This document shows positions 6,371 through 55,876 of a stretch of 64,000 nucleotides of DNA, piece by piece. The DNA is from Isoetes taiwanensis. Taxonomy: Eukaryota > Streptophyta > Lycopodiopsida > Isoetales > Isoetaceae. Where the stretch lies: contig JAJEKV010000005.1 of the NCBI GenBank assembly GCA_021234155.1, forward strand, positions 25,850,863-25,914,862, written 5' to 3'. The notes under the pieces are model-generated. The model was not told the DNA's origin. It saw only the letters and a list, made by a program, of their open reading frames with translations, and ran no database searches. Positions within the stretch are counted from its first letter, which is position 1; the number at the start of each line of letters is the position of its first letter. A program made the position numbers and the translations under genes.

Positions 6371-8327
6371 TATTGTTATTTTTGGTGATTCACAACTTGT
6401 TTGCAGACAGGTGTTGGGAGAATATCAAGCAAAAAATTACCATGTGCCAAGAGCGCAAAATTGTGAAGCAGATGCATTGTGTGAGGTTCTACTTGAACAT
6501 TTGGCTGAAGGAGCAATAAAAAAAAAAGAATTTAGAACGAGATGACCTGCAACAACTTTATCCAATCTTGGTAATTAATGCAAGTGAAGAAAAATAGGTA
6601 AAAGAGGTAAAAGTTCATAAAAAGGGTCAGGATAGAACATTGTATGTTGGAGACTTGTTCAAAGAGGAAGATGAATCTTTTGTTGCTAAATCCTTTGATG
6701 GATGGAAGGATGTGTTTGCTTGGGATTACAATGAGTTGTTTGGTGTTGACAAAAATGTGTGTGAATTTGAAATAAAAATTAAAGAAGGCATGAAACCTGT
6801 TATGCAAAAATTGAAGAGAATAAATACATCTCTGCTTGGCTTGATTAAAGAAGAATTGTATAAAATGAGAGATGCTGGTGTGATTTCAGAGACAGTAAAT
6901 CCAGAATGGCTATCTTGCATAGTGCCTGTTGAAAAGAAGAACAAAAAAATTAGAATTTGCATTGACTATAGAGATTTGGACAAGGCAACCATCAAAGATT
7001 GTTATCCCTTGCCCTTCTTGGAGGAAGTGTTGCATGCTGTTGCAGGTAAATAAATCTTCTTTTTTAGATGATTTTTCAGGATTTAATCAAATCAGCATCA
7101 AGGAGGAAGATCAGCCCAAAACTTTTTTTATCACATCATGGGGAACATTTGCAATGAAGAGAATTCCTTTTGGACAGATGAATGCATCAGCAACATTTCA
7201 GAGAGCAATGGATACTATTTTTAAGAATACGCCTCCCACAGCAGTTCGAGTTTTTCTCGATGATTTGTGTCTAAGCACTTCTAGCAACGATCATTTTGCT
7301 TATCTAACCAAACTATTTGCTATGTGCAGAAAAGGAGGTCGTTGAGCCTAAATCCTAAGAAATGTGTATTCTTATGCTCAAAAGGAGATTTGCTTGGACA
7401 TGAAGTGACTACCCAGGGTATCCAAGTTGCTGCAAATAAAATAGAAGCTTTGAAGAAGCTTGCTCCTCCCAAAACATTCAAACAAGTCAAAAGCTTCTTA
7501 GGTATGACCAGTTTCTTAAGAATGTATGTTCCTCACTTTTCACACACTATAAGTTCTATTTCTAATCTCACAAAGATTGGAAAATTTTCAAAAAATGAAA
7601 GCAAGTACATATTGGTTGATTGGAATGAGACATGTCAAGAATCCTTTGACAAGATTATAGATGCTATATGCCACTCTATTTCGTTAAAACCCCCAGACTT
7701 TGAGAAACCTTTCAAAGCTTACATCAGTGTAAAAAAAAAAAAGCGATTGGATTGGCATTGCTTCAAGATGACAATATCATTTCCTTTGCAAGCAAGATGT
7801 GGTCCCATACTGAACAGAGATATCCTAGACTTGAAAAAGGTGCAGCTGCATTGAAGTTCCTGATTGATAGACAAGGCCACTTACTGCAAAACAATCATAC
7901 TCAAGTTTACATGAAGCAGAACCCGATGTCTCTTCTATTTGCAAAAAAACAGCCAAAAGTTAAGCTGTGTAGATGGGCTTGCAAAATTCAAGCCTATAGC
8001 ATCAGTGTGAAAGTGATGAATTTAGTTGAGAATCCTAGCTCTTACCTACCCTACGCTTTGTTTGAGCATGAGAATCAGGAAGGATTAGATGAAATTGATT
8101 GTGCTACTAATGTGGTTGCTTTTTATGAAAAAACTTTGGATTGGCAGTTTGACATCAGGAATTATTTGGAGAACAATGAGGTGCCCAAGGATATGACCAG
8201 CAGTCAAGAAAGAAGATTCAAAGAAAAATGCAAGAAGTTCAGGTTGATAGGTGAGGTCCTGTGCAAAGTTGACAAGGAAGATGTGCTGCTGAGATGTGTA
8301 GATTCAGAGGAAGCCAATGATTATTGA
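6371..8327 (+). pseudogene. RNase H (C-terminal part) - reverse transcriptase - RNase H of the Tat-like element
   Basis: 6371-6545 encodes the second half of an RNase H of the plant-retroelement extra type (IFGDSQLVCRQVLGEY, then VPRAQNCEADAL). 6640-7345 is gypsy RT: IRICIDYRDLDKATIKD, then after a frameshift near 7050 KEEDQPKTFFITSWGTFAMK and the catalytic VFLDDL box. 7324-7720 carries the RT connection (FLCSKGDLLGHEV, FLGMTSFLRMYVPHF). After a frameshift in an A-run near 7735 the canonical RNase H follows (IISFASKMWSHTEQRYPRLE). Another frameshift at about 8315 separates it from integrase. An RNase H-like domain on each side of RT is notable; other Tat elements I know carry an additional RNase H too. 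Confidence 0.8.
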
Positions 8328-9369
8328 AGCATGCCATGAAGGCATTTGTGGAGGATATTTTGCTGCTGATACAACAACCAAGAAGATTTTAAGATCATGG
8401 TATTTTTGGCCTACCCTTTTTAAGAATTGTTATAATGCCATTAAATATTGTCACAAGTGTCAAGTTTTTGGCAAAAGAGTCTTGCAGCCATCTTCTCTTA
8501 CTGCCATAACCTCCCCAGGGCCATTTCAAATATGGGGACTTGACTTTATAGGTCCTATAGATCCTCCTTCATCAGCTCAGCATCAATTCATTCTTGTGGC
8601 TACAGATTATTTTACAAAATGGGTTGAAACAGTCCCACTTAGAGAGGACAATGCCTTTGCTACAGCAAGATTTCTCCATGAGAATGTTTGTGCTAGGTTT
8701 GGAATTCCTTTCAAAATTATCTCTGATAGGGGAACTCAATTTATAAATCAAACCATTGCATTACTGCTAGCTACTCTCAAGGTCAAGCATACCAAAATCT
8801 CAGCATACTACCCTCAAGGCAATGGTCAAGCTGAGTCAACAAACAAGGTTTTGAAGTCAATTCTAAAGAAAACCATTAGTTCTAAAAAGGATTGGCATTT
8901 GAAATTACATGATGCTTTATGGGCATATAGGACCACTATTAAAGCAACTACAAAGCATACACCCTTTAGCCTTGTTTATGGCATAGAATCCATTGTTCTT
9001 ATCGAGCTTGAACTGCCATATCTCAGATTGGCATATTAGATAAATTTAGAAATGGAAGATGCACTAAAAGAAAGATGTGTGAGATTAATGCAGCTGAAAG
9101 AGCACAGGTTTGAAGCTGAAAATACAGTTCTATTTGAAAAGGCCAAAGACGTAGCAGCATTCAAAGCTGTTCATAAGCTTCAAGGTACTCTCAAAACAAG
9201 TGAATTGGTTCTTAAGTGGAACAAAGCAAGGGAGGATGTAGCAGCAAAGTTTGAGAATCTTTGGGAAGGGCCTTTTGAAGTGGTTGGGACAGCAGGGAAA
9301 GATTCTTATTGGTTGAAGGTTGTTTTGATGGAAGAGAATAGCCAAATCCCATCAACATTCTGCATTTAA
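8317..9369 (+). pseudogene. Integrase of the Tat-like element, one in-frame stop
   Basis: The frame opens in the HHCC zinc region (ACHEGICGG..CHKCQVFGK). The DDE core follows: D in WGLDFIGPI, D in ISDRGTQFI and E in YPQGNGQAEST, then LWAYRTTIKATT and FSLVYG. A TAG at 9037-9039 interrupts the frame. The same frame continues 9052-9369 with the GPFEVV motif of the C-terminal domain. Apart from that stop the integrase looks well preserved compared with the rest of the element. Confidence 0.85.
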
Positions 9370-24455: not shown

Positions 24456-25155
24456 AGAGACTACTTGCATCGAAGGTGCTCCGAAGGCCAGAGACGATAC
24501 TAGAAGAAGAGGAATTTTGCACGTGGCATACACGTAGGATACACGTGGCATACACGTGTATAGGCTAGAATTGCATGAAATCATGCACCTCGGGATTAGG
24601 CAACCTGCTAAGAAATTACTTTTCTTATAACATATATATATTTTTAGCACACCAGCCCTACCGGGCCTACAGCCTTTCTTGCAATTCTAGCCTATCCACA
24701 TAACACCTCCACCTCAGCAAAAATTGATGTAGCATTATTACTTGCCATTGGATCTTCATTTTCGTGAATCTAAGGCTACCAAAATAGAAAAAGCAAGGAA
24801 ATTAGGCAACGGAGATGAGAACCGGCGCAAATTCTTTCCAATCTCAATTTGTTTGCAACAAACTTTGAGATTTAGCTTCTGTTGTATTTGAAAAACATTG
24901 TTTGCCTGAGAAAGTGGTTTTCGTTTTTATTCCTTCATCACCACCCAGCTTTTCTTTCAGAGGATAGCCTTCCGGACTACTAGTGTTATATTTTTCTTCT
25001 TAGTCGCATTGGAATGCCTCACTTCAAGTTCTTTATTCTAACCAAACTACCAAGGTACTGTTTTTTTGTCGCATATCCTTTGCTGTTTCTTTGGTAACTT
25101 TACAAACTAGCATTCATTCTGTCAGGGGCTTTCATTAACCAGTTATGCAAGGAAG
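24456..25155. other. No gene seen
   Basis: A small cluster of TACACGT(GG)CATACACGT repeats lies at 24522-24560. The rest is non-coding; 24890-25100 may be 5' flank of the PPR relic. Confidence 0.45.
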
Positions 25156-26400
25156 TTGAGTTACATGGGGCACTTGAAATTATTAAACAACGAAACATTC
25201 CTCTTTCTAGAGATGATGGTTATTATTTTCTGCAACAGTGTTGCTGTAGAAAAGATTTGCAATCTAGCAGGCGAGTGCAGCTCCTTGCTCATCAATTCAA
25301 TCTCCATACTGTTGGGGTATTTGTTGACCATCTTATCCGCTTATTTTCCATGTGGGGCTGTTGGCTTGAAGCCCAGAAAACATTCAATAACGTCTTGCAA
25401 CCTACTGTCTATACCTGGAGTTCAATCCTTTCTGCTGGGATTGAATGGGATGATATTGTGGGGAATGCGCTTGTTGATATGTACGCAAAATGCTACAGCT
25501 TGGAGGAGTAAAGTTTTTAAGAAATTGAAAACCTAAAATGTGATCTCATGGAATTCGATGATCGCAGGATATGCTGAGTATGGTGAAGGCCTTCTTGCGA
25601 TAGATAGCTTTGAGAAGATGCAAGAACAAGGAACTAAACCAAATAAAGTCACATTTTTTAGTGTGTCTAAAGCATGTGGAAATATGGGAGCTCTAGAACA
25701 GGCTAGGCTCCATGACATGGTTTTAGAACACGGTTTTTAGCAAGATGTTACTATAGTAAACAGTCTTATTGACATGTATTCAGTTTTATTGACATGTATT
25801 CAGGTTGTGGTAGTTTGGAAGAGTCCTGCATGATCTTCGATACTTTGCCAAATCAGAATACTGTATCTTGGAATGTGTTGGTAGCAGAATATGCCCAACA
25901 TGGCAAGACGCTCCTTGCTTTACAATGCCTTGAGAGGATGGAGGAAGAAAGCACCAAGCCAGGCAAAGTTACTTTTCTCTGTATCCTTGTTGCATGTAGC
26001 AGGGCAGGCCTTGTAGACAATGGACGCTGCTGAGAAAAGCTTATAGAATTATGCCAGATATGGGCCACTATCTTTGCATGATCGATCTTTTGGGACGAGG
26101 AGGTTGCCTTAAGGAAGCAGAGGATCTACTTCAAGCTACTGGGCAGCCACTCATTACAGGTTTGAAGTGTTTGCTTAATGCGTACAGGTTGAATGGAAAT
26201 GTAGAACTAGGGAAATGTTGTTTCGACAAAATGGTGCTGCTAGATCCATCCTGTGCTCCTGCTTTGTGCTTATATCAAATATTTATGCTGATACTAATAT
26301 GCAGAAAGCCACTTACACCAGTAACCCAAAATTTGAGATGATGTTGGGCCACTCAGATGATATTAATCTTATGTTGGAAAGATTTAAATGAGCAAATTGA
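25156..26400 (+). pseudogene. Pentatricopeptide-repeat (PPR) gene relic
   Basis: Several frames carry PPR motifs of the PLS type in order: VYTWSSILSAG..VGNALVDMYAKC, then VISWNSMIAGYAEYGEGLLA..TKPNKVTFFSVSKACGNMG, then NTVSWNVLVAEYAQHGKTLL..TFLCILVACSRAGLVDNG. The E-motif part follows: YLCMIDLLGRGGCLKEAEDL and NAYRLNGNVELGKCCFDKMV. Frameshifts or stops fall near 25511, 25738, 25780 and 26030. A direct duplication of TTATTGACATGTATTCAG at 25768-25805 adds one break. PPR proteins of this type act in organellar RNA editing or processing. The N-terminal repeats are missing and no DYW domain is seen. No intron is visible. Confidence 0.85.
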
Positions 26401-28322: not shown

Positions 28323-28415
28323 CGGATCTTCCACATTAGTGAAAGTCATTGTGGATATGTGTTCCATAGGTTCTAATAAGTCCATCTTCTTGGCTTCCGA
28401 ATTTACGTATACAGG

Positions 28416-28513
28416 AATGACCTTTTGGTCGACATTCCTGGCATGGAAACCAGGCGACGCGCGGCAGCGCAGAGCCTGGTTGACATGCCAGGAATGTCGA
28501 CCAAAAGGTCATT
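28416..28513. repeat. 98-nt hairpin at the left end of the Crypton-like element
   Basis: The perfect 30-bp arms are 28416-28445 and 28484-28513. Each contains GACC-TTTT-GGTC or its complement, itself a small palindrome. A second stem AACCAGGC/GCCTGGTT lies inside the loop. It begins within the left direct repeat, so it is a plausible recombinase-binding or recombination-site structure. No equivalent hairpin is seen at the right end. Confidence 0.85.
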
Positions 28514-29300
28514 ACTGTAACGTGGACGACACTGACGTGTCATCCTGCGTGGCAGGCAAAAAAATTTCTCTGTTTTCCTTCTGGCAAATTTTTTTTCCTT
28601 ACCTCCTTTTGGCTGCGAAGGCGAGCTGCTGCCGGACCTTTTTGTGGCGCACCGAAGGTGCTCGAGGTCGGTCTGCAAGCATCTTGCTTGCATTTTTTTG
28701 CTGGTGCCATCGTTTTTGTAGCATTCCGAACCTTTTTGTGGAGAATCTTGGAGCTTAGGTTCGACTGCTTGGACTTTTGCTTGCTTTTATTCTATTCTGG
28801 CCGCTAAATTTTGCTATTGACTCACTTGTTTGTAAATCTTGCAAATCAAAAGTGTTTCAGGCGTTGGAAGATCGTGCGGGTTGTATTTTTTGCCAAAGAT
28901 TGGTGAGAAGACATCTTAGGGCACATTCAGGCCTTAGAAGGTAAAAAGTTTGGTTTATTTTAGATGTTAGGTTTCTTATGTTCCTGCATGTTAATTTTTT
29001 GTTGATCTTATGGTTCTTAGGTCCGATATTCTGTGTTTACAAGTTCTTAGGTCCGATATTTTGTCTGTAGTAGTTCTTTATTCTGTTCTTTTATTCTTTA
29101 TTCTGTCCTTTTATTCTGTTCTATTTTCTTTATTCTGTTCTTTTATTCATTATATGTTTGTAATAGTTTCTTACTCGTTTTTTTCGTTACACAGGGTGAA
29201 GAAACTAGTGCTTAGACATTGTAGAGGTTGGATCATGAGATTCCCTCTAATTTTTCTTGTCAATGGAGATGCTGAGAATGCTGCCTGGAGGCTTGCAGGC

Positions 29301-31718
29301 ATGGATTCGACTCCAAGCTTTGATCTGCACATCTCTCAAGCTGCTGGCAGTTCTGAAATTGCTGTTTTAAGTGATGTAACTAACCTGCAGGATGAAGATG
29401 TTAGCTTTGAAAATGAGTTTTCTGATGATGCAATTACAAAATACCTTGAAGAAGCAGAATCTAATGGGCATCTAAGTGTAGTAGTTCCATGTGAAAGCGA
29501 GAAAGAGAATTCTGAGAAACAGCCAACAGTTCCCTTTTTGGAAATTGATAAAGATTTGCTGCAAAAAGTTCGTAGTGGCGGCATTAGCAAGTCTGAGGCA
29601 AAACTCCAGTGGGCGAGGAGGCGATTTGACTGTTGGAGGTTCATATGAAAATTCCTGTTGAAAAGAAAGTTGAGGAGCTTGATTTGAAGGAGTTTTCCAG
29701 CATATTGGAGCTATTTATGCTTCAAGTTGTGAAGCTAAATGGATCAATGTACCCCCCTGAAACGTAAGTCATTTATTTTTTTACATTCTTTTATTTAGTT
29801 ATTAGTTGCATTTTTTTTGAAGAACTGTGTCATCAATATATTAAAAGAATGGTAATGTTACAAAGCAAGTGAGGAGGAAGGAGAACTGCCCCAAAGAGAC
29901 AGCGATACCTCGACACTCCACAACAAACTCACAAAAGAACTGCAACTCTACTGCTGTACAAACCGACCATCACCATCTACAACACCCAAGAAGTCCCGCC
30001 AAATGGCAAATTTCTGCTCTACTAATCCCGGGAACACCAGAAAGCTTTGAAATAGCTTGTACCTGAGTCGAGGAATCAGAGAGGCTGCAGGCTGCTGAAT
30101 CCCCTGAAAGATCCACAACCGCCGCCGCTTCCAAAATTTAGTTGCATTTTTTAGTTACTGTTTTTAGTACATTGTTTTCTTTAGTTACATTTATTTAGTT
30201 ACATTCTTTAGCATTCTTTTATTTAGTGTATTCTTTTATTTAGTTTACATTCTTTTATTTATTTGACATTCTTTCATTACGTCTTACATTCTTTCTTGCA
30301 GGCTTCAAGACCTGTTTAGAAGATTTGGAGTCATGATTCGACGTGAGCAGGAGCGGAAAATTGTAGAAAATGGTATAGAGGAATTTCCTTTCAATATTAA
30401 GTATTTTGTTGTTTTCATGCGTGCAAGGATTGCATGTGTTGCCTCTATGAGGAGATCGAGGATGACACCAGGGGTTTGTAAGAAAAGGAAGAAAGTAGAT
30501 GAAATTTCATTTGCCAACGAACAGGCCCTTCTATCTGATGTTGACCATGGAATTCAACATTCCGTTGGTCTGCAGAAGAGGCTATTATTTTACTGTGTTT
30601 CCAGATTTGGTATTCGGGGTCAAGAGAAGTTAGAAGGTCTGAAGGTGGCAGATTTTCAGATAGGAACGGAAAATGGGAAGGAGTACGTAGAGTATAATGA
30701 GAGGCTGTCAAAGCAGTATGACGTAAGCATGGACAGGTACCAAGAAGAATCCTTTCGGATGCCGCTGCGTGTTTATGAAGAAGATGTAATTGTGACCTTC
30801 AAACAATTTTTCCGCCATTACCCTTACTCAAGTCCTGATGACGACTGGTTATTCAAACATGCAATTATTTCACCACGTAACACGGTAAATAACTGTTTTT
30901 TGTATTTCATAATAGCTTTAATTTTTAAAACTGAAACTCTTTAAATCTTGTAGGCATGCTATAATGTTAAGCATAAGGTTAGTGGCCGAAAGATGTCACA
31001 ATGGCTGAAGTACATGATGAAGCTTATAGGAGTTGATGGCTCTTTCAGTGGAAAGAGTGGACGGATGACACTAGTTTCCAGGTTGTCACGAGCTGGTGTA
31101 CCAATTAATATTGGTATGAAGGTTACTGGACATCGCAGTGTAGAGGCTTTTCAAAGGTAATTGAATGTACAATTCTTTTGGCTTATTTCTTTATTTGTGT
31201 AGTTTCCCTAATTAGTTGCATATTCTGCTATATTCAGGTATGATAAAACTGCAGATTTGCAAGTGAAGGCTGCAATGGAGATAGCTGGGAAGCCGTTCGA
31301 TGAAACTGGATCTAGAAGAATGTTTGAAGCAGTTTATAAGGATGAGCTTAATGCGTACGATAAAGGGCAGTTTGGCAAAAATGTTGAAGCTCCACATGGT
31401 AATTCTACACCAGCTTCATTAATTTCTGCTCCAGTATCAGGTTCTACATCAATTGTAGATGCTGTCAAGCAAGTTCGGGTACCTAGTATCGATGTTGCAG
31501 GGGCTTTAATATCAGATGCAGATCTGCGGAAAGAAGTTGAAGATGATACATTTTTAAATGCTCATTGGGATGATCTGGAGAAGGTGGTGGCAGCGCATCG
31601 GTTTAGTGGTGTCGTAGGGAAAACATTTCATAATTGTGTCTTCAATTTCAAGTCCCTACATTTCATAATTGTGTCTTCAATTTCAAGTGATATCTGTTTT
31701 CTGAATTTCATATGCTGA
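29301..31718 (+). CDS. Crypton/DUF3504-type tyrosine recombinase, four exons, one apparent frameshift
   Basis: Exons: 29301-29763, 30302-30884, 30954-31156 and 31238-31718. All junctions are GT-AG and in phase (..YPPE-T-LQDL.., ..RNT-ACYN.., ..AFQ-R-YDKT..). An N-terminal acidic region is followed by a SAM-like domain (KLQWARRRFDCW, then LDLKEFSSILELFMLQ and the family-typical SMYPPET). The catalytic domain has R in FGIRGQE (codon 30615), K in NERLSKQYD (30711), K and R in KSGRMT (31053, 31062) where HxxR is usual, H in TGHRSVE (31131) and the nucleophile Y in QRYDK (31239). A one-base frame change is needed at about 29630-29645 between CWRF and KIPVEKK, so this copy may be disrupted. Alternatively translation could start at ATG 29643. 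The C-terminal tail (31350-31718) is family-unlike and ends in duplicated sequence. The start at 29301 is chosen because upstream codons are low-complexity. Confidence 0.75.
29817..30137 (-). mobile_element. LINE-type 3' fragment in intron 1 of the recombinase gene
   Basis: A 321-bp insert lies between duplicated TTAGTTGCATTTTTT (29802-29816 and 30138-30152), a 15-bp target-site duplication. It begins with T-run sequence and TTGAAGAACTGTGTCATCAA.., compatible with a minus-strand poly(A)-tailed retroelement of the same style as 47301-47800. No coding domain is recognisable. Confidence 0.65.
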
Positions 31719-32055
31719 AGATGACCATATAACTCTCTAACTGAGATAATGAATATCTGATTTTGTTTCGAGCATTGAATGATAAAATTTGAATGTGTTT
31801 CAAGATTTAGTTATGCTTTGAATGTGTCTGAAGCTTTGAATGTAAGTGTGAATCAGGAATGTAAGCTTTGAATGTAAGTGTGAATCAGGAATGTAAGTAG
31901 AAAATCGGAATGTCTGCAAAAAAATCAGAATGCAAGTAAAAACAGAATGCAACTAAATTTACTTCACATTCCTGGAATTGAAAACTGCCACGTGTCAGCA
32001 CCACAATGGAAGTTAGGGCAGGATGACACGTAAGTGTTGTTTACGTATACAGGAA

Positions 32056-33129
32056 AGGCATGTAGATCGCCTTTCTTGTTAAAAGAAACCACAATTAACT
32101 ATAGACAATTAACTTTAGATTATAGGCCTAATTAAATAAATCCTTGTCAAAGCCTTCTGGTGTAGTTTGAATTTTTCGTGAAAAGGTAAAAGAAAATTTC
32201 CGGGGTAAGAGCAAAATTTTCTAAACAGGAGTGTCCGTTGCTGGTCGAATGTAAATCCGGCATCCCCTTGTTATCGAGCGAGCAAGTACACAAGTACACA
32301 GTTTGAAGCTCCAAGTTCAAGACTTAACTATTTTTCACCATTGATTGATCTATCCAGATTTAGCCTTAAAGCGTGGCTTCCATGGAGATTAAACTGTTGA
32401 GTGCTTCATTGGTGCTCCATCTCCCTTATCGGTAAAACTGTAGTGCAAGTGCAAAAACTTTGGTTCTTGCTGCGCTCCATGGACAGTTTAATCGCCTTCA
32501 AAACCATCCCGATCCCTTTGCCTGTCCCTTTAAATAGTTTGATCAAGAGAAGAAGAGATTTGGGGCGCAATGAAATGACCTCTTTCTTGTGTATATTGCA
32601 AATTGACTCAAAGCCATGTAGAGCAACTCCTTCAAGGCGATGTGGGCCATGCCGGAAGTGCTTGCTTGTCTCCAAGATGAAGCATTGGAAAATTGATGAA
32701 GCAACGGGTTGAAGGTTCGAATCCCCCATCCTCGCCCACTCTGACAAATATTATGGTTATGAAAGCACCAAACGATAAAATGGATATTAGCTTTTAAAAT
32801 GCATGCACTACAAATATGGCATGCCATCAATGGATTTTTGTTGATATAAACATCATTTGTAAGATGCCACTGCTTGATATTTCCAGTTATTTCTTTTGAG
32901 AGCCAAGGAGAAAGCAAAAGCAAATGGATGGATGAAGGGGGATCCAAAGAGTATGGGGTTCAAGAACCATGTTAGCATGTCCGTTCATGGTCAAAGATAA
33001 TGGAGAAACCAGACTTGTATCTTGTCTGTAACTCTTCTTCCCTCGGAGATAATTATCCATGGGTTGATGGTTGACTTTGGAAAAGCTTACATAAAGAATT
33101 GCCCTTAGAAGGAAATTATCGTCAGTGGG
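32056..33129. other. Intergenic; no confident gene
   Basis: Open frames at 32401-32747 exist on both strands and show no domain. A tRNA-like sequence is listed separately (32636-32737). The 3' end of the BTL3-like gene borders on the right. Confidence 0.45.
32636..32737 (+). other. Degenerate tRNA-like sequence (B-box and acceptor pairing)
   Basis: GAAGGTTCGAATCCCCC resembles a T-arm/B box. The flanks GGCGATG (32636) and CCTCGCC (ending about 32736) can pair 6 of 7 positions as an acceptor stem at a length of ~100 nt, as in long-variable-arm tRNAs. No proper D-arm or anticodon arm can be drawn, so this is at most a tRNA relic or SINE head. Confidence 0.25.
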
Positions 33130-41940: not shown

Positions 41941-43482
41941 TGAATTGCAAGGAGAGCGCGATTTACCATCGACTCCATTACTCTCAGCCACCTCAATTGT
42001 TTACCTTACTTGTACATGATAAAGCATATGAAAATGAGGAAACTAAGAAGGGTGTTGACTTTTCCGTCTTTCCACCTACATTTCCTCTTCATGAATTTAA
42101 GACCTTTCTGATGCAGGACTCCAGTCCGGAGCTACCTCCACGAAGGAGTGTGGACCATGCGATTGACATTGCTCCGGGGTCCGCTCCTCCATCTCGAGCT
42201 CCATATCGAGTCTCACATCAAGAATCTTTGGAGATCGAGCGTCAGCTTGCCGATCTTCTTGAGCGAGGTTATATCCGCCCAAGTCGTAGTCCTTACGGTG
42301 CACCTATGTTATTGGTAAAGAAAAAAGACAAGAGCATGCGGCTTTGTGTGGATTATCGTGCGCTCAACAAGATAAGCATCAAGAATCGATACCTGCTGCC
42401 ACGTATTGATGATTTTAGATCGTCTTCAAGGTAGCAAATATTTTTCTAAGATTGATTTGAAAAGCGGATATCATCAGATAAGGATTAAAGAAGGTCATGA
42501 ACATAAGACGGCCTTTAGAACACACTTTGGTCACTATGAATATATGGTTATGCCTTTTGGTCTAACTAATGCTCCTGCCACATTTATGGCAGCCATAAAT
42601 GATCTATTTCGTGACCATCTTCAGAAGGGTGTTATTGTGTATCTCGATGACATTCTTGTGTATTCTAAGAACCTAGAAGAGGTAAAAGTTGTTTTGACTC
42701 TATTGCAAAAACATAAATATTTTATTAATCCTAAGAAAAGTTTCTTCTTTAGAGATCATATTGAATACTTGGGACATTTTATCTCTGCCCAGGGAATTTC
42801 AATTGATTCACAGAAGGTTATGGCAATACGCACATGGCCTGTACCAAAGAACCAACATGATGTAAGATCCTTTCTTGGACTTGCAAGTTTTTATCATAAG
42901 TTTGTTAAGAATTTCTCTCTAGAAGCAACACCTTTGACTAATTTGTTGCGTAAGAATGTTCCATTTCGATGGACTCAACAAGCTGAACGAAGCTTTATGA
43001 ACCTTAAGAATGCATTAACAATGGCTCCTATTTTGACCATTGCAGATCCTCACAAGCCTTATGATGTTATGACAGATGCAAATGATTATGGAATCGGAGC
43101 TGTATTAATGCAAGAAGGAAAAGTTATTGCTTATGAAAGTCATAAGTTTTCTAGTGCAGAAGCTAATTATTCTGTTTATGATAAAGAATTTCTAGCTATG
43201 ATTTATGCTCTCCAGAAATGGAAGCATTACTTAATGAATGCTCACTTCTGTGTTAAAACTGACCATCAAGCTTTACGCTATTATTCCACACAACTTGTTA
43301 TGAATAAACGACAAGCAAGATGGCTCGCATTCATAGCCAACTTCCAGCCCTTTGAGATCATTTACATTCCTGGAAGTAAGAATGTAGTGGCAGATGCTCT
43401 AAGTCGAAGAGCTCATGCTAATGAAATTGGGGTTGCAATAGAAGTTGTAATTGAACCTGTACTTTTATTCCACATTGGTTAA
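41940..43482 (+). pseudogene. Reverse transcriptase and RNase H of the chromovirus, one frameshift
   Basis: The first frame (to 42434) holds the RT start: [40 protein letters not shown] and [15 protein letters not shown]. After a one-base shift at about 42410, the frame 42406-43482 runs through KYFSKIDLKSGYHQIRIKEG, the YLDDILVYS catalytic box, LGHFISAQGI and FLGLASFYHKFVKNFS. The RNase H follows (TDANDYGIGAVLM, YDKEFLAMIYAL, KTDHQALRYY, ADALSRR). The stop at 43480-43482 is beyond the normal RNase H end, in foreign sequence. Confidence 0.9.
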
Positions 43483-44115: not shown

Positions 44116-45070
44116 TGGTCTGATTTAAACCAGCTAGGAAAGAACGGAGTCAAGCCGAAATTTCTCTCTATAAAGATTATTCTCTTCAAGGAAATCTTCT
44201 TTATTTTAAGAATCGTTTATGTGTACCTAATTGTAAACCATCTCGTTCTCTTATAATTAGGGAAGCCCATGAGAAACCATATGTTGCACATCCCAGTTTC
44301 TCTAAGACTTATGAACACGTGGCTTCTGTGTATTATTGGCCACGCATGAAAACTGATATTGAACGTTTTGTCCAAGGATGTTTGGTGTGTCAATGCATGA
44401 AGCTTGATACTGGGCTCTTACATCCATTAGATATCCCAAAGGAGAGATGGGAATCAATATCTATGGATTTCATCACAGGACTCCCAATAACCTTACGAAA
44501 GAATGATGCAATCTTGGTCATTGTTGACCGATTGACTAAGTTGGCACATTTTTTGCCATGTAAGAAAGTCATTACAGGCATCCAGGTAGCTCAACTATTT
44601 ATTAAAGATGTTTTTAAGCTACATGGTCTCCCTAAGTCGATTGTGTCCGATCGAGATTCTAAATTTACTGGTCATTTTTGGACAAGTTTATTTGAGTCTC
44701 TTGGAACAGAACTTAAGTTTAGTTCATCTTATCATCCCGAAACGGATGGTCAAACAGAAAGGACTCATCGAACTCTGGAAGCTATGTTACGAAGCTATAC
44801 TGCAAATAAACCTACATTGTGGGAAGATTATCTTCCACTAATAGAGTTTGCCTATAATAGCTCATTGCATGCTTCTACAGGTGTTACTCCTTTTCATGCA
44901 GCATATGGCTTTACTCCTCGGACACCTGCTAATTGGTTGGCGAATTCTCGAGTAGAGATAGCTAATCAAGTTGTTGAGGAGATGGGTGGTATTATTACTG
45001 CCGTAAGAGATAAGTCATGCACAATTCCAACAAAAGAAGTTTCCCGATCGCCATCGAAGACATTTAGAAT
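44116..45070 (+). pseudogene. Integrase of the chromovirus, frameshifted at the 3' end
   Basis: Zinc-binding part: AHPSFSKTYEHVASVYYWPR and CLVCQCMK. DDE core: D in MDFITGLP, D in VSDRDSKFTGHFW and E in HPETDGQTERTHR, then EFAYNSSLHASTGVTPF. The upstream end (44130-44318) is open in the same frame (LYKDYSLQGNLLYFKNRLCV). The frame shifts at about 45065 into the chromodomain-containing part. Confidence 0.88.
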
Positions 45071-45486
45071 TTTCGGTGGGGGAGAAGGTGTTGGTGTACA
45101 TTGCACCACACCGTTATGCTTCCGTGAACAAGAAGTATCCAAAGTTACGAGCAAGGTACTTTGGACCCTATGAAATATTGCGCAAGTTCAATGATGTAAG
45201 TTATGAACTTAAGCTTCCCGTCACGTGGAAGAAAATCCATCCAGTATTTCACGTGTCACTCTTGAAACCTTTCATTGAAAGTGAAACAACTCAGTTGGAA
45301 CCTGAGGATGCACCGCCACCTCAGTTTGTTGAAGGCAATAAGGTTCTAGTGGAACCTCTTAAGATCTTGAATACAAGAGAGAGAGTTCTGACCCGTCGAA
45401 CAACGGTATTGGAATACTTGGTCCAATGGAAGGGTTTGCAACATGGGAATCATCTTCCTTTGTCGCTGACTATCCTGAGATTCTGA
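45071..45486 (+). pseudogene. Integrase C-terminus with chromodomain
   Basis: GEKVLVYIAPHRY, YFGPYEILRKFNDVSYELKL and IHPVFHVSLLKPF are the GPY/F module. It is followed by VEPLKILNTRERVLTRRTT and EYLVQWKGLQHGNHL, a chromodomain (EYLVKWKG box). Chromodomains in this position define chromoviruses and can steer integration to marked chromatin. The last residues are frame-shifted (TWE part missing). Confidence 0.85.
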
Positions 45487-47300: not shown

Positions 47301-47800
47301 TTTTTTTTTGAAGGACGTCAAGCTTTATTCACCAACTAGAAACCAGAGCAACATAAATGCAAAGACAGGATTATAACCCCAGTGGACAAACCGATCCAAC
47401 TGAGCACAACCACCTGCCTATGCAAAAGAATGAATCTGAAGGTAAGTATGCCAGATCAGTACTTTCTTCTCTTGATCAAGAGAAGAACAATTGTAAGCCA
47501 TAACAATTTTATCTTGCGCCCACTGAAGAACAACCTCATCTGCAGTATCTATGCCCTTAAAGATAAACAACCTCCTTCTCTTCCAGATTGACCATAAAAG
47601 CCAGCCGCATGCGAGATGAAAAGCTCGTTTCCGTTGTTTGGGCCAAGCATCAGGATAGATAGCAAGCAAAATTTGCTGGCTAGATCGAGACGTGCCAAAA
47701 AGGGTCAACAACCAAGACCATGCCTGCCGAAGCCTCTCACACAAGAAAAAACAATGCTCAATACTCTCAACCCTTTGCTGGGATAAAGGGCAGAGCTCTG
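47301..47800 (-). mobile_element. LINE 3' end (5'-truncated) in the 3' LTR
   Basis: A 500-bp insert starts with a T-run (the minus-strand poly(A) tail) and is flanked by an 18-bp target duplication AAAAAAGGCTAAAGTCTT (47283-47300 and 47801-47818). The minus-strand frame 47744-47418 encodes ..RLRQAWSWLLTLFGTS.., FHLACGWLLWSIWKRRRLFI and FKGID, the zf-RVT/C-terminal part typical of plant LINEs. Truncation at the 5' end is the usual outcome of target-primed reverse transcription. Confidence 0.9.
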
Positions 47801-47924
47801 AAAAAAGGCTAAAGTCTTGGAGAGATCTATAAATAGAACCTAAAATTCAGTTAGATATATCTTCGCGAGCAGAGCTCCGATTGAGGTGACCTTTAACCCC
47901 TTGGAACCGGCTCGAAGTCTAGTT

Positions 47925-52005: not shown

Positions 52006-52597
52006 TGTTGTTGTAAGTCATGTCATGATTTCTTCTGAGTGAAACATATACAGGTTGAGAAGACTAGGTTAAGAAGACAATTTCAAGTTCATTGGTTTAA
52101 TATCGAGTTCTTTGGTTTAACTAATAAAGGTTCAATGGTTGAACCTTATTTGCTTTTGATGGCATTAAACCTTTTATGGTTTTAATGCGAACCTGCATGG
52201 AGATAAACATATAGCATTTTGTCTATATTAAGCTGGTCTCGATTATTCGAGCCAGCACATCTGTATTCCGATCGGTCCTGCAAGACCGACGGTTCTCTGA
52301 GTTCTTATCCGGCCATTGCAGATTGATCTAGCATTCTCTAGTGCCGGATCCGACCTAATACAAGAAGCAAGTTCTAGTTTGAAATAATGGTTGTCGTGTT
52401 AATATGATAAATGAAATGGTCGAAATCCATTGCTACAGTAACTAGTATGATTGTTACAATGGTTCTATATATCAAAATGTTTAATGGTCTTTAACATGTT
52501 TTAAGAGCTTGACATGATCTTAGAAATATAATAGAGATGAATTGTATTGACATTGAGATTATAATGATGAACTGATAAGTGATTATTTCTGACTTCA
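52006..52597 (+). repeat. 5' LTR of the copia element
   Basis: Assigned from its TG..CA ends and the adjacent primer-binding site; without the second LTR the left edge (52006 or 52009) is uncertain. Confidence 0.6.
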
Positions 52598-52599
52598 TT

Positions 52600-52611
52600 T
52601 GGTATCAGAGC
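52600..52611 (+). promoter_or_regulatory. Primer-binding site of the copia element
   Basis: TGGTATCAGAGC (tRNA-Met type), 12 bp before the gag start at 52623. Confidence 0.85.
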
Positions 52612-52622
52612 AAAATCCTATC

Positions 52623-54291
52623 ATGGCTAGCAGATTGAGAGCAACATTACTAAGTGGCATTGAGGTGTATAAAGGAGGTTTAGGATTCCAAGTTTGGAAG
52701 GAGAAGATTGAAGAAGTATTGAGAGTAGAAGGTTTATGGGAGATAATAGAGGAGGAAGAATCTGGTACTGTGATCAGTCCAGCAAATAGCAAGGGAAAAA
52801 CTTATGCTAGTGCAGCTGCTTCAGGCACTGCTGGAAGTCCAGCAAAGGATGGAGGAGGAGGCTCCAGCTCCACTGAGGTAACTAGTGCTTCACCAGATGT
52901 CTCTCAAAGAGCAAAAATTCTGAAAGCAAAGGCTGTTATAAAGAGCAAACTGAGCTCTAGTATCCTTTTAAGGATGAGGGGATAGAGAAATGTGGTCCTA
53001 TTTGCTAAGGACTTATCAAGTGAAAACTTCATCTCAATTGGATGTTTTAGACAAGGAATTGAGAGAGCTGAAGTATAAAGAAGGAGAGGACATTAAAGAC
53101 TTCTTTGAGAAGTTTGATAATGTAATTGCTGACCTTACTGCTGCAGGTGTACCCATAACCAATGAGTATCAAGTTCTCTCATTGGCAAGAGCTTTTTTAA
53201 AATACAAAAACCTGTCTACTTTGGTTAGGAATGTAGCCAAAAGCAGGGAGGATGCTGAAAATATGATAAAGACTGAATTAGAGCAGCATAACTTGACTGT
53301 TGAAAATGAAGAAGAGCAAACAGAAATTTTGTTTACCTCTGGAGAAAAGGCCCGAGGAGGACAAGGTAAACTCGGTCCTTGCTTTGCATGCAATGCACAA
53401 GGCCATCTCAAGGCCAATTGTCCTAAATTAAATAAAGACAATAGATGTTATAATTGTGAAGGATTTGGCCATGTGGCATCTAACTGTTCCAGCCCAAGAG
53501 ATTTTTCAAAGAAGCAAGAAGGAAATGTGGCTAAAGCTGGCAGGGGCAGAGGCTACAACACTAGAGGAAGAGCAACCCGAGGAAGAGGATGGGGCAGGTC
53601 CACTGAGCTGAATATTGCCACTGAAAAGGTTTCTGAACCAGAAAAAGAGCTCGATAAAAATGCTGAGGTATGTCACTCTAAATTATTAACAGTTGTTTCA
53701 GACTATAAGCTAAAGAATGTTGACAATCTGTATTATGTGTTAGATAGTGGAGCTGAGAGAAGCATGATCAAATCACCTTCCATGCTCAAGGAAAAGGTCC
53801 AAAAGAATTCAAGCTTTGTGCAGATGGGTGATGGAAATTTGCAGAAGGTGGATCAAGCTGGATTCTTAGAAATATTTGATCTCAAAGGAAATCCAGTCAT
53901 TCTAGAGAATGTACTGTGTGTGCCTAATCTAGTTATAAATTTAAATTCTGTAACTCAGCTGGTGGATTTGGGATATCATGTTCACTTTGAAACTCATGAA
54001 TGCAAAGTACTTTTGAATAATGAAGTCAAATTTCTAGCAAAAAGAGTTGGCAGACTTTTTGCATTTCATAATGACGTTCATGACACAATTAATGCTGTTA
54101 TGACATCAACAATCAAGCTATGGCATGAAAGGTTAGGGCATACCCATCTAAACAACTTAAATTTCATGGTTAAGGAAGGGCAAATTATAGCAGAAGATAA
54201 AGAAGAGGAAAAATTAAGTGTGCTGGCTGCTTTAAGGGCAAATCGAGCAGGCTTCCATTCCCAAAAAAAGGTAAAAGGGCCAAGAACTTGA
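52623..54291 (+). pseudogene. Copia gag, protease and integrase N-terminus, one frameshift
   Basis: Gag starts MASRLRATLLSGIEVYKGGL and shifts frame at about 52980. It continues to LKYKEGEDIKDFFEKFDNVI (UBN2-type gag), two CCHC knuckles (CFACNAQGHLKANC, CYNCEGFGHVASNC) and an RG-rich stretch. The protease box YYVLDSGAERSMI and the copia pre-integrase motif LWHERLGHTHLNNL follow. The frame ends at 54289-54291 before the integrase core; the CxxC half of the zinc motif is lost. Confidence 0.88.
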
Positions 54292-54852
54292 TTGAATTAG
54301 TGCATAGTGATCTTTGTGGTCCTTTGAATGTAAGAAGTATACATGGCAAAAGGTATTTTATTACATTTACTGACGATTTTTCCAGGAGGACCAAATGCTA
54401 CACATTAAGAACCAAAGATCAAGCTTTTGAAGCTTTCAAATTGTACCAAGCTGAAGTTGAAGGCAAACAGGTATGAAATTAAAATGTTTGAGAACTGACC
54501 GAGGAGGAGAATTTGTATCTAGCAGATTTAATAATTATTGCTTTCAAAATGGAATTAGAAGGCAAGTTACATGTTCACACCACAACAGAATGGAGTTTCA
54601 GAAAGGAAAAATAGATCTATTCTTAATGCAGTAATAGCCATGATCAAACATGCAGGGTTGCCCAATTTTTTATGGGAAGAAGTAGTCAAGGCTGCTGTGG
54701 AAATACAAAATAAGCTTCCATCTAGGAGCATTAATGGAAAAACTCCAGATGAATTGTGGTACGGGATAAAACCTTCTTATGATAAATTCAAGGCTTATGG
54801 CTGTCTTGCTTATGTATTAGTTCCAGAAGAGGAGAGACGACCGAGCTCTTGA
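54288..54852 (+). pseudogene. Copia integrase core, frameshifted
   Basis: D in LVHSDLCGPLN, then ITFTDDFSRRTKCYTL. A shifted frame has [14 protein letters not shown] (second D), and the frame from 54571 has [16 protein letters not shown] (E) with FLWEEVVKAAVEIQNKLPSR. A further shift follows at about 54845. Confidence 0.85.
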
Positions 54853-55876
54853 ATGCTACTTAATTGGTTATGATGAGCAGTCAAAAGGCTACCAGCTTTA
54901 TGACCCTTTAAGGAAAAGAATTATTGTCAGTAGAGATGTATACTTTGTTGAAAACAAGTTGTATAAAGAGAGAAAGATAGACAGTCCAAGTAGACAAATA
55001 AATGAAGATACTCATAAGGAAAAGCAAATTGTTTTTGCTGACATGGACAATGGTGACTCAAGCAGTGAACAAAGGTTGATTGGAAATGAGCAGGGTACTG
55101 CTGAAAACTCAGAAACAGAAGGTGTTATGGAATCAGATATACCAGAGACCATCACTTCAGATATACCAGAGATCATCACTGAAAAAGATCAAAGAAGAAC
55201 AAGAAAAACAGAAATTGAAAAGTTAATGGAAGATGCCATGGTTGATATTAATAACTTTGGACACACAAGGGAAGGAAGAAGCAAGAGATTAAATATGTCA
55301 GAGGACTCAGAAGCCATCATAATGGCGATTATTGAACCAAATCTTCCTCAAAATTATGATGATGCTATCAAGGATGTGCATGCCTCACAATGGAAACATG
55401 CTATGGAAGAAGAACTTAATGCTTTTAAAAGGCCTGATACATATGAGCTAGTGAGGAAACCAGAAGGGAAGAATGTTGTTGCCAGCAAATGGATCTTTAA
55501 AAACAAACTTGGACCTGATGGAAAGTCAATAATATACAAGGCAAGACTCATGGCAAAAGGATACTCTCAGAAAAAGGGATTAGATTACAATGAAACATTT
55601 TCTCCTATAGTCAAACTTGCAAGCACCAGAATTCTTTTGGCATATGCAAGTGCAAATGATCTAGAAATCCATCATATGGATGTTAGCACAGCATTTTTGA
55701 ATGCTAAACTTGAAGAAGATATATTTATGCAACAAACAGAAGGCTTTGAACAGGGTACAGGAATGGTTTGGAAGTTAAAACGAGCTGTTTATGGGCTCAA
55801 GCAAAGTCCTAGAGAGTGGTATAAATGTATGGATAAGCTTTTGAGAACAAGTGAATTAGGAATCCTTTTAAGATGA
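54853..55876 (+). pseudogene. Copia RT (N-terminal two thirds)
   Basis: ECYLIGYDEQSKGYQLYDPL leads into a spacer rich in E/S/T. RT follows from about 55380: WKHAMEEELNAF, NVVASKWIFKNKLGPDGKSI, ARLMAKGYSQKKGLDYNETF, IHHMDVSTAFLNAKLEEDIF and KRAVYGLKQSPREWY. The YVDD catalytic box is missing because the sequence changes at about 55860 (..LLRTSELGILLR stop). The missing continuation is visible in the degraded copies near 61900, 62930 and 63970. Confidence 0.88.

Follow-up and report, generated by a model that had tools for sequence, protein, structure and literature searches.

A Crypton-like tyrosine recombinase transposon family, probably native to Isoetes taiwanensis

Introduction

A stretch of 64,000 nucleotides from the Isoetes taiwanensis genome (the window, which starts at base 25,850,863 of contig C1056) raises the question of whether a land plant carries a transposon of the Crypton kind. 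At 28405-32045 the window contains a whole element of 3,641 bp with a single gene, which encodes a tyrosine recombinase (YR). The element is read here as a decayed full-length copy of a dispersed, Crypton-like DNA transposon family that is native to the host plant, a reading to which a probability of roughly 85% is attached. The Crypton label applies to the kind of enzyme and to its likely mechanism. The recombinase lacks the His of the R-H-R-Y catalytic set and the element possesses terminal inverted repeats, both of which depart from the strict definition of a Crypton, and it is therefore filed as Crypton-like, outside groups F, S, A and I.

Those four groups were described by Kojima and Jurka in 2011 (PMC3212892; papers are cited throughout for the portions of their text that were available). 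Table 1 of that work lists Cryptons in fungi, animals and stramenopiles (oomycetes and a diatom) only, and the elements are reported to have neither terminal inverted repeats nor long direct terminal repeats. Within the available text of a review of land-plant transposable elements, DIRS elements are left out for land plants and the word Crypton is unused (PMC9033089), and an Arabidopsis review states that none has been described in that plant (PMC7385966). A paper on plant genomes places Cryptons among the DNA transposon subclasses and calls them relatively rare in eukaryotes (PMC11630846), and the repeat tables seen give 24 Crypton entries, covering 1,719 bp, for Dracaena and 0 for Beckmannia. 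No described land-plant Crypton family appeared among the listed titles, abstract openings and passages of the open-licence PMC literature; one may nonetheless be recorded in a subscription journal or in Repbase.

A dispersed family with common ends

The original prediction, made from the letters of the window, proposed a Crypton-like transposon with its YR gene between repeats, and held that a transposon would be favoured if multiple copies with identical ends were scattered through the genome. Such copies are present. The 1.658-Gb host assembly was searched with the terminal sequence ACGTATACAGGAA, which occurs exactly at 100 places or more, a count to which no estimate of chance occurrence is attached. 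From 100 listed places 60 were fetched in list order, with places that neighbour one already taken being skipped; they lie on 38 contigs and comprise 20 loci of 6.4-8.0 kb and 40 of 600 bases. Forty-nine of these 60 termini pass a test for either palindrome arms or a dyad of 10-9-10 pattern. The remaining 11 (L019, L020, L024, L032, L034, L039, L043, L048, L054, L063 and L064) include several that look like damaged members of the family. A looser search with a 13-mer at no more than one mismatch gave 853 + 805 places, which is below the backward control (2,532 + 2,385) and uninformative on copy number.

Of the 20 loci of 6.4-8.0 kb, 15 yielded both ends, with right ends being accepted solely as TTTACG, TTTACT or TTTAGG; L019, L020, L024, L026 and L027 have no accepted right end. 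Together with the window this gives 16 two-ended copies that span 272 to 3,641 bp. Three of them are long, namely the window copy, L013 (3,499 bp) and L016 (3,446 bp), and contain homologous YR sequence in the same orientation, whilst 13 are short (272-1,241 bp) and have no YR match between their ends by tblastn. Gene-less copies thus outnumber the long ones by 13 to 3 in this set. YR sequence is also found at L012 and L020, where it adjoins the sampled element and does not lie inside it. Three pairs of places have common left flanks and are not independent (L011/L031, L012/L059 and L026/L027). Within the L012/L059 pair and the L026/L027 pair, the latter on contig C930, the left flank and terminus are the same, which suggests that segments were duplicated or that the assembly retains both haplotypes.

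Ends, core and repeated use of the core

The left end of the family has the layout (TT)ACG|TATACAGGAA, followed by a palindrome and then by AACGTG. At the right end the inner part of the left end recurs in inverted form and closes with TTTACG, a hexamer found in 14 of the 16 copies and altered by one base in the other two. On the left, where ACG is fixed by the way in which places were chosen, it is preceded by TT in 13 of the 16. Other copies likewise have inverted repeats; some of these are strong, and those of L012, L013 and L022 are weak. The features of the window copy are collected in Table 1.

Table 1. Features of the window element and its immediate surroundings
Feature	Position	Strand	Remarks
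Whole element, both ACG cores included	28405..32045	+	Ends set by comparison with 15 other two-ended copies
Left core TTACG, short direct repeat	28403..28407	+	TT before ACG in 41/49 family termini
Left-end palindrome	28410..28519	.	Arms 28410-28462 / 28467-28519, 89% complementary, 4-nt loop; covariation across 14 copies
Outer dyad, 10-bp arms, 9-bp spacer	28412..28440	.	0 mismatches to dyad pattern
Inner dyad, inverted copy of outer	28489..28517	.	1 mismatch
Left terminal inverted repeat ACGTGGACGACACTGACGTGTCATCCTGC	28520..28548	+	29 nt, 86% complementary to 32018-32046
Exon 1 of YR gene	29301..29763	+	From ATG of MDSTPSF; frame change between 29629 and 29645
Intron 1	29764..30301	+	GT..AG
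LINE 3' fragment in intron 1	29817..30137	-	Antisense; flanked by TTAGTTGCATTTTTT at 29802-29816 / 30138-30152
Exon 2	30302..30884	+	Catalytic Arg I (FGIRG), YNERLSK box
Intron 2	30885-30953	+	GT..AG
Exon 3	30954..31156	+	K-x-x-R (KSGR), GHRS box; Lys in 5/5 copies
Intron 3	31157-31237	+	GT..AG
Exon 4	31238..31718	+	Starts at catalytic Tyr (RYD), ends with TFHNC motif
Right terminal inverted repeat	32018..32046	-	Partner of 28520-28548
Right core TTACG, short direct repeat	32041..32045	+	Copy comparison
Terminus-like sequence outside element (TATACAGG.. + dyad 32050-32078)	32046..32078	+	Another family member

The element had initially been bounded by 16-bp direct repeats. The identity of these repeats is confirmed, as TTTACGTATACAGGAA occurs exactly at 28402-28417 and 32040-32055 and these are its sole matches in the window at up to three mismatches (in shuffled sequence, at least two matches arose in 12 of 100 shuffles at this loose setting). 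The 16 bp are not the boundary of the element itself, since the comparison of copies gives a core of 3-5 bp. The longer identity arises because the sequence to the right of the element itself resembles a terminus of the same family, and that sequence is read as an insertion site. Bases 32042-32079 match the beginning of the L023 copy with 100% identity across 38 bp, and in L022 and L035, as in the window, the right flank continues like another terminus. In all, 10 of 61 termini stand directly behind the right end of another copy and in register with it, whereas a control with the flanks shifted outwards by 45 bp gave none. In-register tandem termini of this sort would be expected if a site-specific recombinase used one core again and again.

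Constant repeats of 3-5 bp are also found at the ends of piggyBac and mariner elements. A conventional cut-and-paste transposon with a DDE transposase, or a family of miniature inverted-repeat transposable elements (MITEs), whose target duplication is short and constant and in which the YR gene is a passenger captured by some copies, would similarly account for that repeat, for the 29-bp inverted repeats and for the many short gene-less copies. Such an origin is nevertheless considered unlikely. Open reading frames (ORFs) of at least 130 aa in the window element are limited to the YR exons and one ORF that spans the palindrome (neither this ORF nor the other copies were scanned with profiles), and no DDE transposase was seen among them, nor in L013 and L016, the ORFs of which were scanned in part. 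Moreover, the three long copies belong to two YR subclades and carry the YR gene at about the same distance of 0.9-1.0 kb from the left end, albeit with a weak right end in L013, and the recombinase has changed little at nonsynonymous sites against saturated synonymous ones (see below), both of which count against a passenger.

The ORF content of the window element bears equally on a remnant of a DIRS or Ngaro retrotransposon that has lost its reverse transcriptase. DIRS elements also use a YR, and the plant ALOG proteins descend from a DIRS-type recombinase (PMC3537659), so that the plant element resembles both in its recombinase ancestry and in its presence in the plant lineage. DIRS elements encode a reverse transcriptase, and the same paper states that complete elements of its novel class were not known from streptophytes. 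No reverse transcriptase was seen among the ORFs of at least 130 aa in the window element, the relatives found for the recombinase are DUF3504 proteins, and the layout and size recur in L016 and, with its weaker right end, in L013. A retrotransposon remnant is accordingly held to be highly improbable.

The recombinase gene

The predicted gene looks spliced, with four exons and with three introns that have GT..AG borders. Exon 1 is not open throughout, however, as a frame change was overlooked in the original prediction. The frame that ends in RRFDCWR is stopped by a TGA at 29646-29648, and the frame that contains HMKIPVEKK is open only after a TGA at 29626-29628. An intron at this place was considered and rejected, given that the two frames overlap by just 17 bases (29629-29645) and that similarity to L016 continues across them. 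The window copy of the gene is therefore broken, unless the assembly is in error at this point. An earlier in-frame ATG for exon 1 lies at 29235. Further upstream an ORF at 28759-28944 (+) ends at a possible splice donor and contains CIFCQRLVRRHLRAHSG, which by eye resembles a zinc finger; this ORF may represent an additional 5' exon of the gene.

The first intron is enlarged because a 3' fragment of a long interspersed nuclear element (LINE) has been inserted in antisense, with a 15-bp repeat, TTAGTTGCATTTTTT, on either side. The fragment has protein similarity (30% over 53 aa, E 1.4e-4) to a LINE at 47433-47591 of the window, and 47418-47846 (-) and 29817-30137 (-) represent two related LINE 3' ends; the former gives a weak zf-RVT match (E 0.0046). 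This relationship argues against contamination of the assembly by a piece of fungal, oomycete or animal DNA, as does the position of the window 25.85 Mb into its contig and the spread of the 60 fetched places over 38 contigs. Contamination, which had been named as a possible flaw of the original prediction, would explain why the element resembles Cryptons known from just those organisms (PMC3212892), and is scarcely credible.

Relatives and active site of the recombinase

The presence of a recombinase gene is supported by matches of the window protein to the Pfam Phage_integrase family (E 1.1e-4, under the curated cut-off) and to integrases of PHROGs (E 6.6e-6 and 7.7e-6). The boxes YPPETL, FGIRG, YNER, GHRS and RYD, which had been picked out at the beginning, are all present in the conceptual protein. 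The assignment to the DUF3504 type holds in that the relatives found are DUF3504/Crypton-type proteins, with a BLASTP E of 6e-11 to the protein P0001; the Pfam profile itself, as described below, is another matter. A C-terminal motif of the form F-x-N/S-C is, by eye, common to the plant recombinase and several DUF3504 proteins. In a tree of five plant copies and 11 unnamed DUF3504 rows, with no named reference Cryptons included, the five plant recombinases form one side of a branch with 100/100 support and the 11 rows lie opposite.

Searches with the single protein were less productive. A phmmer search of the PDB gave no match at E<=1, a protein search with residues 110-470 gave nothing at E<=0.01 among 2,794 candidates, and no match was found in the viral contigs of IMG/VR. 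The best PDB match of profile A3 is QRICH1 (E 3.4e-17), and this match is mainly that of the DUF3504 proteins because they make up 11 of the 12 rows of the profile. A profile search of the viral contigs returned one short match to the catalytic boxes, at 3001-3189 of L049 (IMGVR_UViG_3300037310_000321), a stretch that resembles the DUF3504 boxes across residues 224-284 (33%, with an E of 8e-6 among the candidates). A fold made from the single sequence had a mean predicted confidence (pLDDT) of 35 and was not used. A middling-confidence model of the catalytic domain superposes on Cre and XerA, so that the fold of this domain appears to be shared with these enzymes and with the type IB topoisomerases; a close sequence relation to Cre and XerA is lacking, with identity of 12-14% in those rows.

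Five copies of the recombinase retain Arg I, Arg II and the Tyr (RYD), which in L013 lies at the start of the last exon. The His of H-x-x-R, present in all 11 outside relatives, is replaced by Lys, in the forms KSGR, KSSR and, with one extra residue, KRGRR in L012. In the later His box the window and L016 have GH, whereas L013 and L020 have GQ and L012 has RH. Type IB topoisomerases carry a Lys at the position of the missing His, and by this analogy it is plausible that a K-x-x-R recombinase is active.

Between the window and L016 the proportion of nonsynonymous differences (pN) over 224 codons is 0.15, against a proportion of synonymous differences (pS) of 0.85, which is saturated and reaches 0.99 in the middle segment. 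For two of the three segments the ratio of the corresponding rates, dN/dS, comes to roughly 0.06, with dS near saturation; for the third it is not computable. Judged by these values the recombinase looks to have been long maintained by selection, despite the present damage to four of its copies.

Constraint of this kind, together with the loss of the His, would also suit a Crypton-derived gene that the host has domesticated, after the manner of KIAA1958, ZMYM and QRICH1 in animals. The domesticated DUF3504 genes (QRICH1, ZMYM2/3/4, KIAA1958 and KCTD1) are conserved genes of their hosts and lack the majority of the catalytic residues (PMC3212892), unlike the plant recombinase, which keeps both Arg residues and the Tyr and sits in a repeated element. 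Domestication is very unlikely in view of the several divergent YR copies in the same genome, and for the window copy, where the original prediction had left it as an option, it finds no support, given the broken frame and the position of the gene between transposon ends that are common to dispersed copies.

The left-end palindrome

The palindrome at the left end appears to be rewritten on both arms together. An alignment was made of 14 rows picked for their long palindromes, and the count covers the outer 37 of 53 pairs (512 cells). Of these cells 90.2% are paired, compared with 69.5% when shuffled and 31-43% when slid by 1-3 columns, and 23 pairs have changes on both sides. Counted by cell, there are 98 two-sided changes, 12 one-sided changes that keep the pair and about 50 unpaired cells. 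The one-sided changes are of the G-T type, and an RNA hairpin as the cause of the palindrome was rejected on account of their small number next to the two-sided ones; pairing or copying at the DNA level is therefore favoured. More widely, 27 of 61 termini have a partner arm that is complementary at 17 or more of 21 positions, for which shuffled arms give a 99th percentile of 14 and a maximum of 16. The 24 distinct arms among these 27 are on average 54% identical between copies and 94.7% complementary within a copy, the latter mean being quoted for termini chosen by the same 17/21 measure.

The length of the palindrome also varies. At L011 (contig C71) and L031 (contig C940) the left flanks are identical over the 100 bp printed and the right flanks are nearly the same, and this one insertion exists in two versions, with a palindrome of 118 bp in one and a 42-bp form in the other. 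Length therefore changes in place, by collapse or by growth.

Weighing the assignment

A number of observations count against a Crypton-like transposon and keep the assignment from being firmer. On the side of the enzyme, Pfam DUF3504 (PF12012) is matched in one of the five copies, L013, at E 0.018 and 15.5 of the 29.7 bits required, hence below the cut-off; no match is listed for the window protein even with E relaxed to 10, nor for the pieces of L016, L020 and L012. The tree tool warned of long branches coming together, namely P0010 and the plant rows, and the Lys for His exchange holds for 5/5 copies. Frame changes or stops interrupt the coding parts in the window, L016, L013 and L020, and no intact YR gene was seen among the copies read, of which L012 was not examined exon by exon. 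On the side of the ends, a shuffle control accompanied the narrower measure of arm matching but not the palindrome and dyad test, and the inverted-repeat scores of the right end are weak in L013 (21), L012 (25) and L022 (26), for which the next best are 18, 20 and 23. Terminal inverted repeats are equally compatible with cut-and-paste transposons. The repeat common to both junctions is taken to be ACG, and mostly TTACG, with core length and precise excision being inferred, and a check of the fetched loci with the joined flanks of the 16 copies revealed no empty site.

Set beside known systems, the plant element most likely operates in the manner of a Crypton. It is a one-gene YR DNA transposon with a recombinase akin to DUF3504, it has short direct repeats at its ends (TTACG in most copies, as with the 4-6 bp of fungal and stramenopile Cryptons, with none having been found in animals), and its gene-less derivatives are commoner than full-length copies, as they are relative to autonomous Cryptons (PMC3212892). 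It differs from the Cryptons of that account in its terminal inverted repeats and left palindrome, and also in its Lys, in its plant host and in its separation from the 11 DUF3504 rows of the tree. Starships are likewise YR elements, with direct repeats of 2-12 bp and with terminal inverted repeats in 18 of 20, and their family Hephaestus targets TTAC(N7)A, which may be compared with the mostly TTACG core of the plant element (PMC12153272). Compared by description only, Starships are about 20-700 kb in length and carry cargo, unlike the plant copies of 0.27-3.6 kb with one gene or none. Neither a DUF3435 captain nor large cargo was found in the window element, for which Pfam at E 10 reported Phage_integrase only.

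Proposed mechanism and significance

For the Crypton-like family the following cycle may be proposed. The recombinase would cut at the cores by means of its tyrosine, and the element would be excised as a circle with one core at its junction. The circle would then insert at another TTACG, which could be a core at the end of a resident copy, and copies that lack the gene would be mobilised by enzyme from other copies. The dyads of the left end are probably binding sites for the recombinase or regulatory sites. The arms of the palindrome probably stay matched because one serves as template for the other, as might happen by way of a hairpin that forms while the DNA is replicated or repaired.

A bolder and tentative proposal, to which somewhat less than even odds are given, is that the family represents a separate, long-lived plant lineage of tyrosine-recombinase DNA transposons outside the four Crypton groups, characterised by a topoisomerase-like K-x-x-R active site, a TTACG target, head-to-tail arrays through reuse of the core, and arms that are rewritten together. 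Were this so, each subfamily would have its own palindrome, maintained with a hairpin as template and perhaps recognised by its own recombinase.

A dispersed plant family with non-autonomous derivatives would extend the Crypton class to plants, and it bears on the question of whether Cryptons are older than the ancestor of fungi, animals and oomycetes or have been transferred. The K-x-x-R enzyme would offer a natural test of how closely the active site of a recombinase can approach that of a type IB topoisomerase, and the palindromic end documents that the arms of a DNA palindrome at transposon ends have changed in concert. As a practical tag, TTACG|TATACAGGAA may serve to locate such elements in other plants.

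Other features of the window

No match was found in Rfam and tRNA scans of the window. Besides the element, the window carries a mitochondrial carrier gene and both Copia- and Gypsy-type elements, which, along with the pentatricopeptide repeat gene described below and the size of the genome, mark the host as a plant. Pieces of retrotransposons lie at 6598-9039, 42376-43482, 44124-45173 and 52593-55876, within which Pfam recognises a reverse transcriptase and RNase H (42376-43482), an integrase (8302-9039) and a copia-type gag (52978-54291); the Gypsy label and the remaining pieces were assigned by eye. At 25098-26341 (+) there are pieces of a pentatricopeptide repeat (PPR) gene in different frames, which by eye resemble the plant PLS class. 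Pfam PPR matches fall in 25773-26033 and 26000-26341, with none in 25098-25511.

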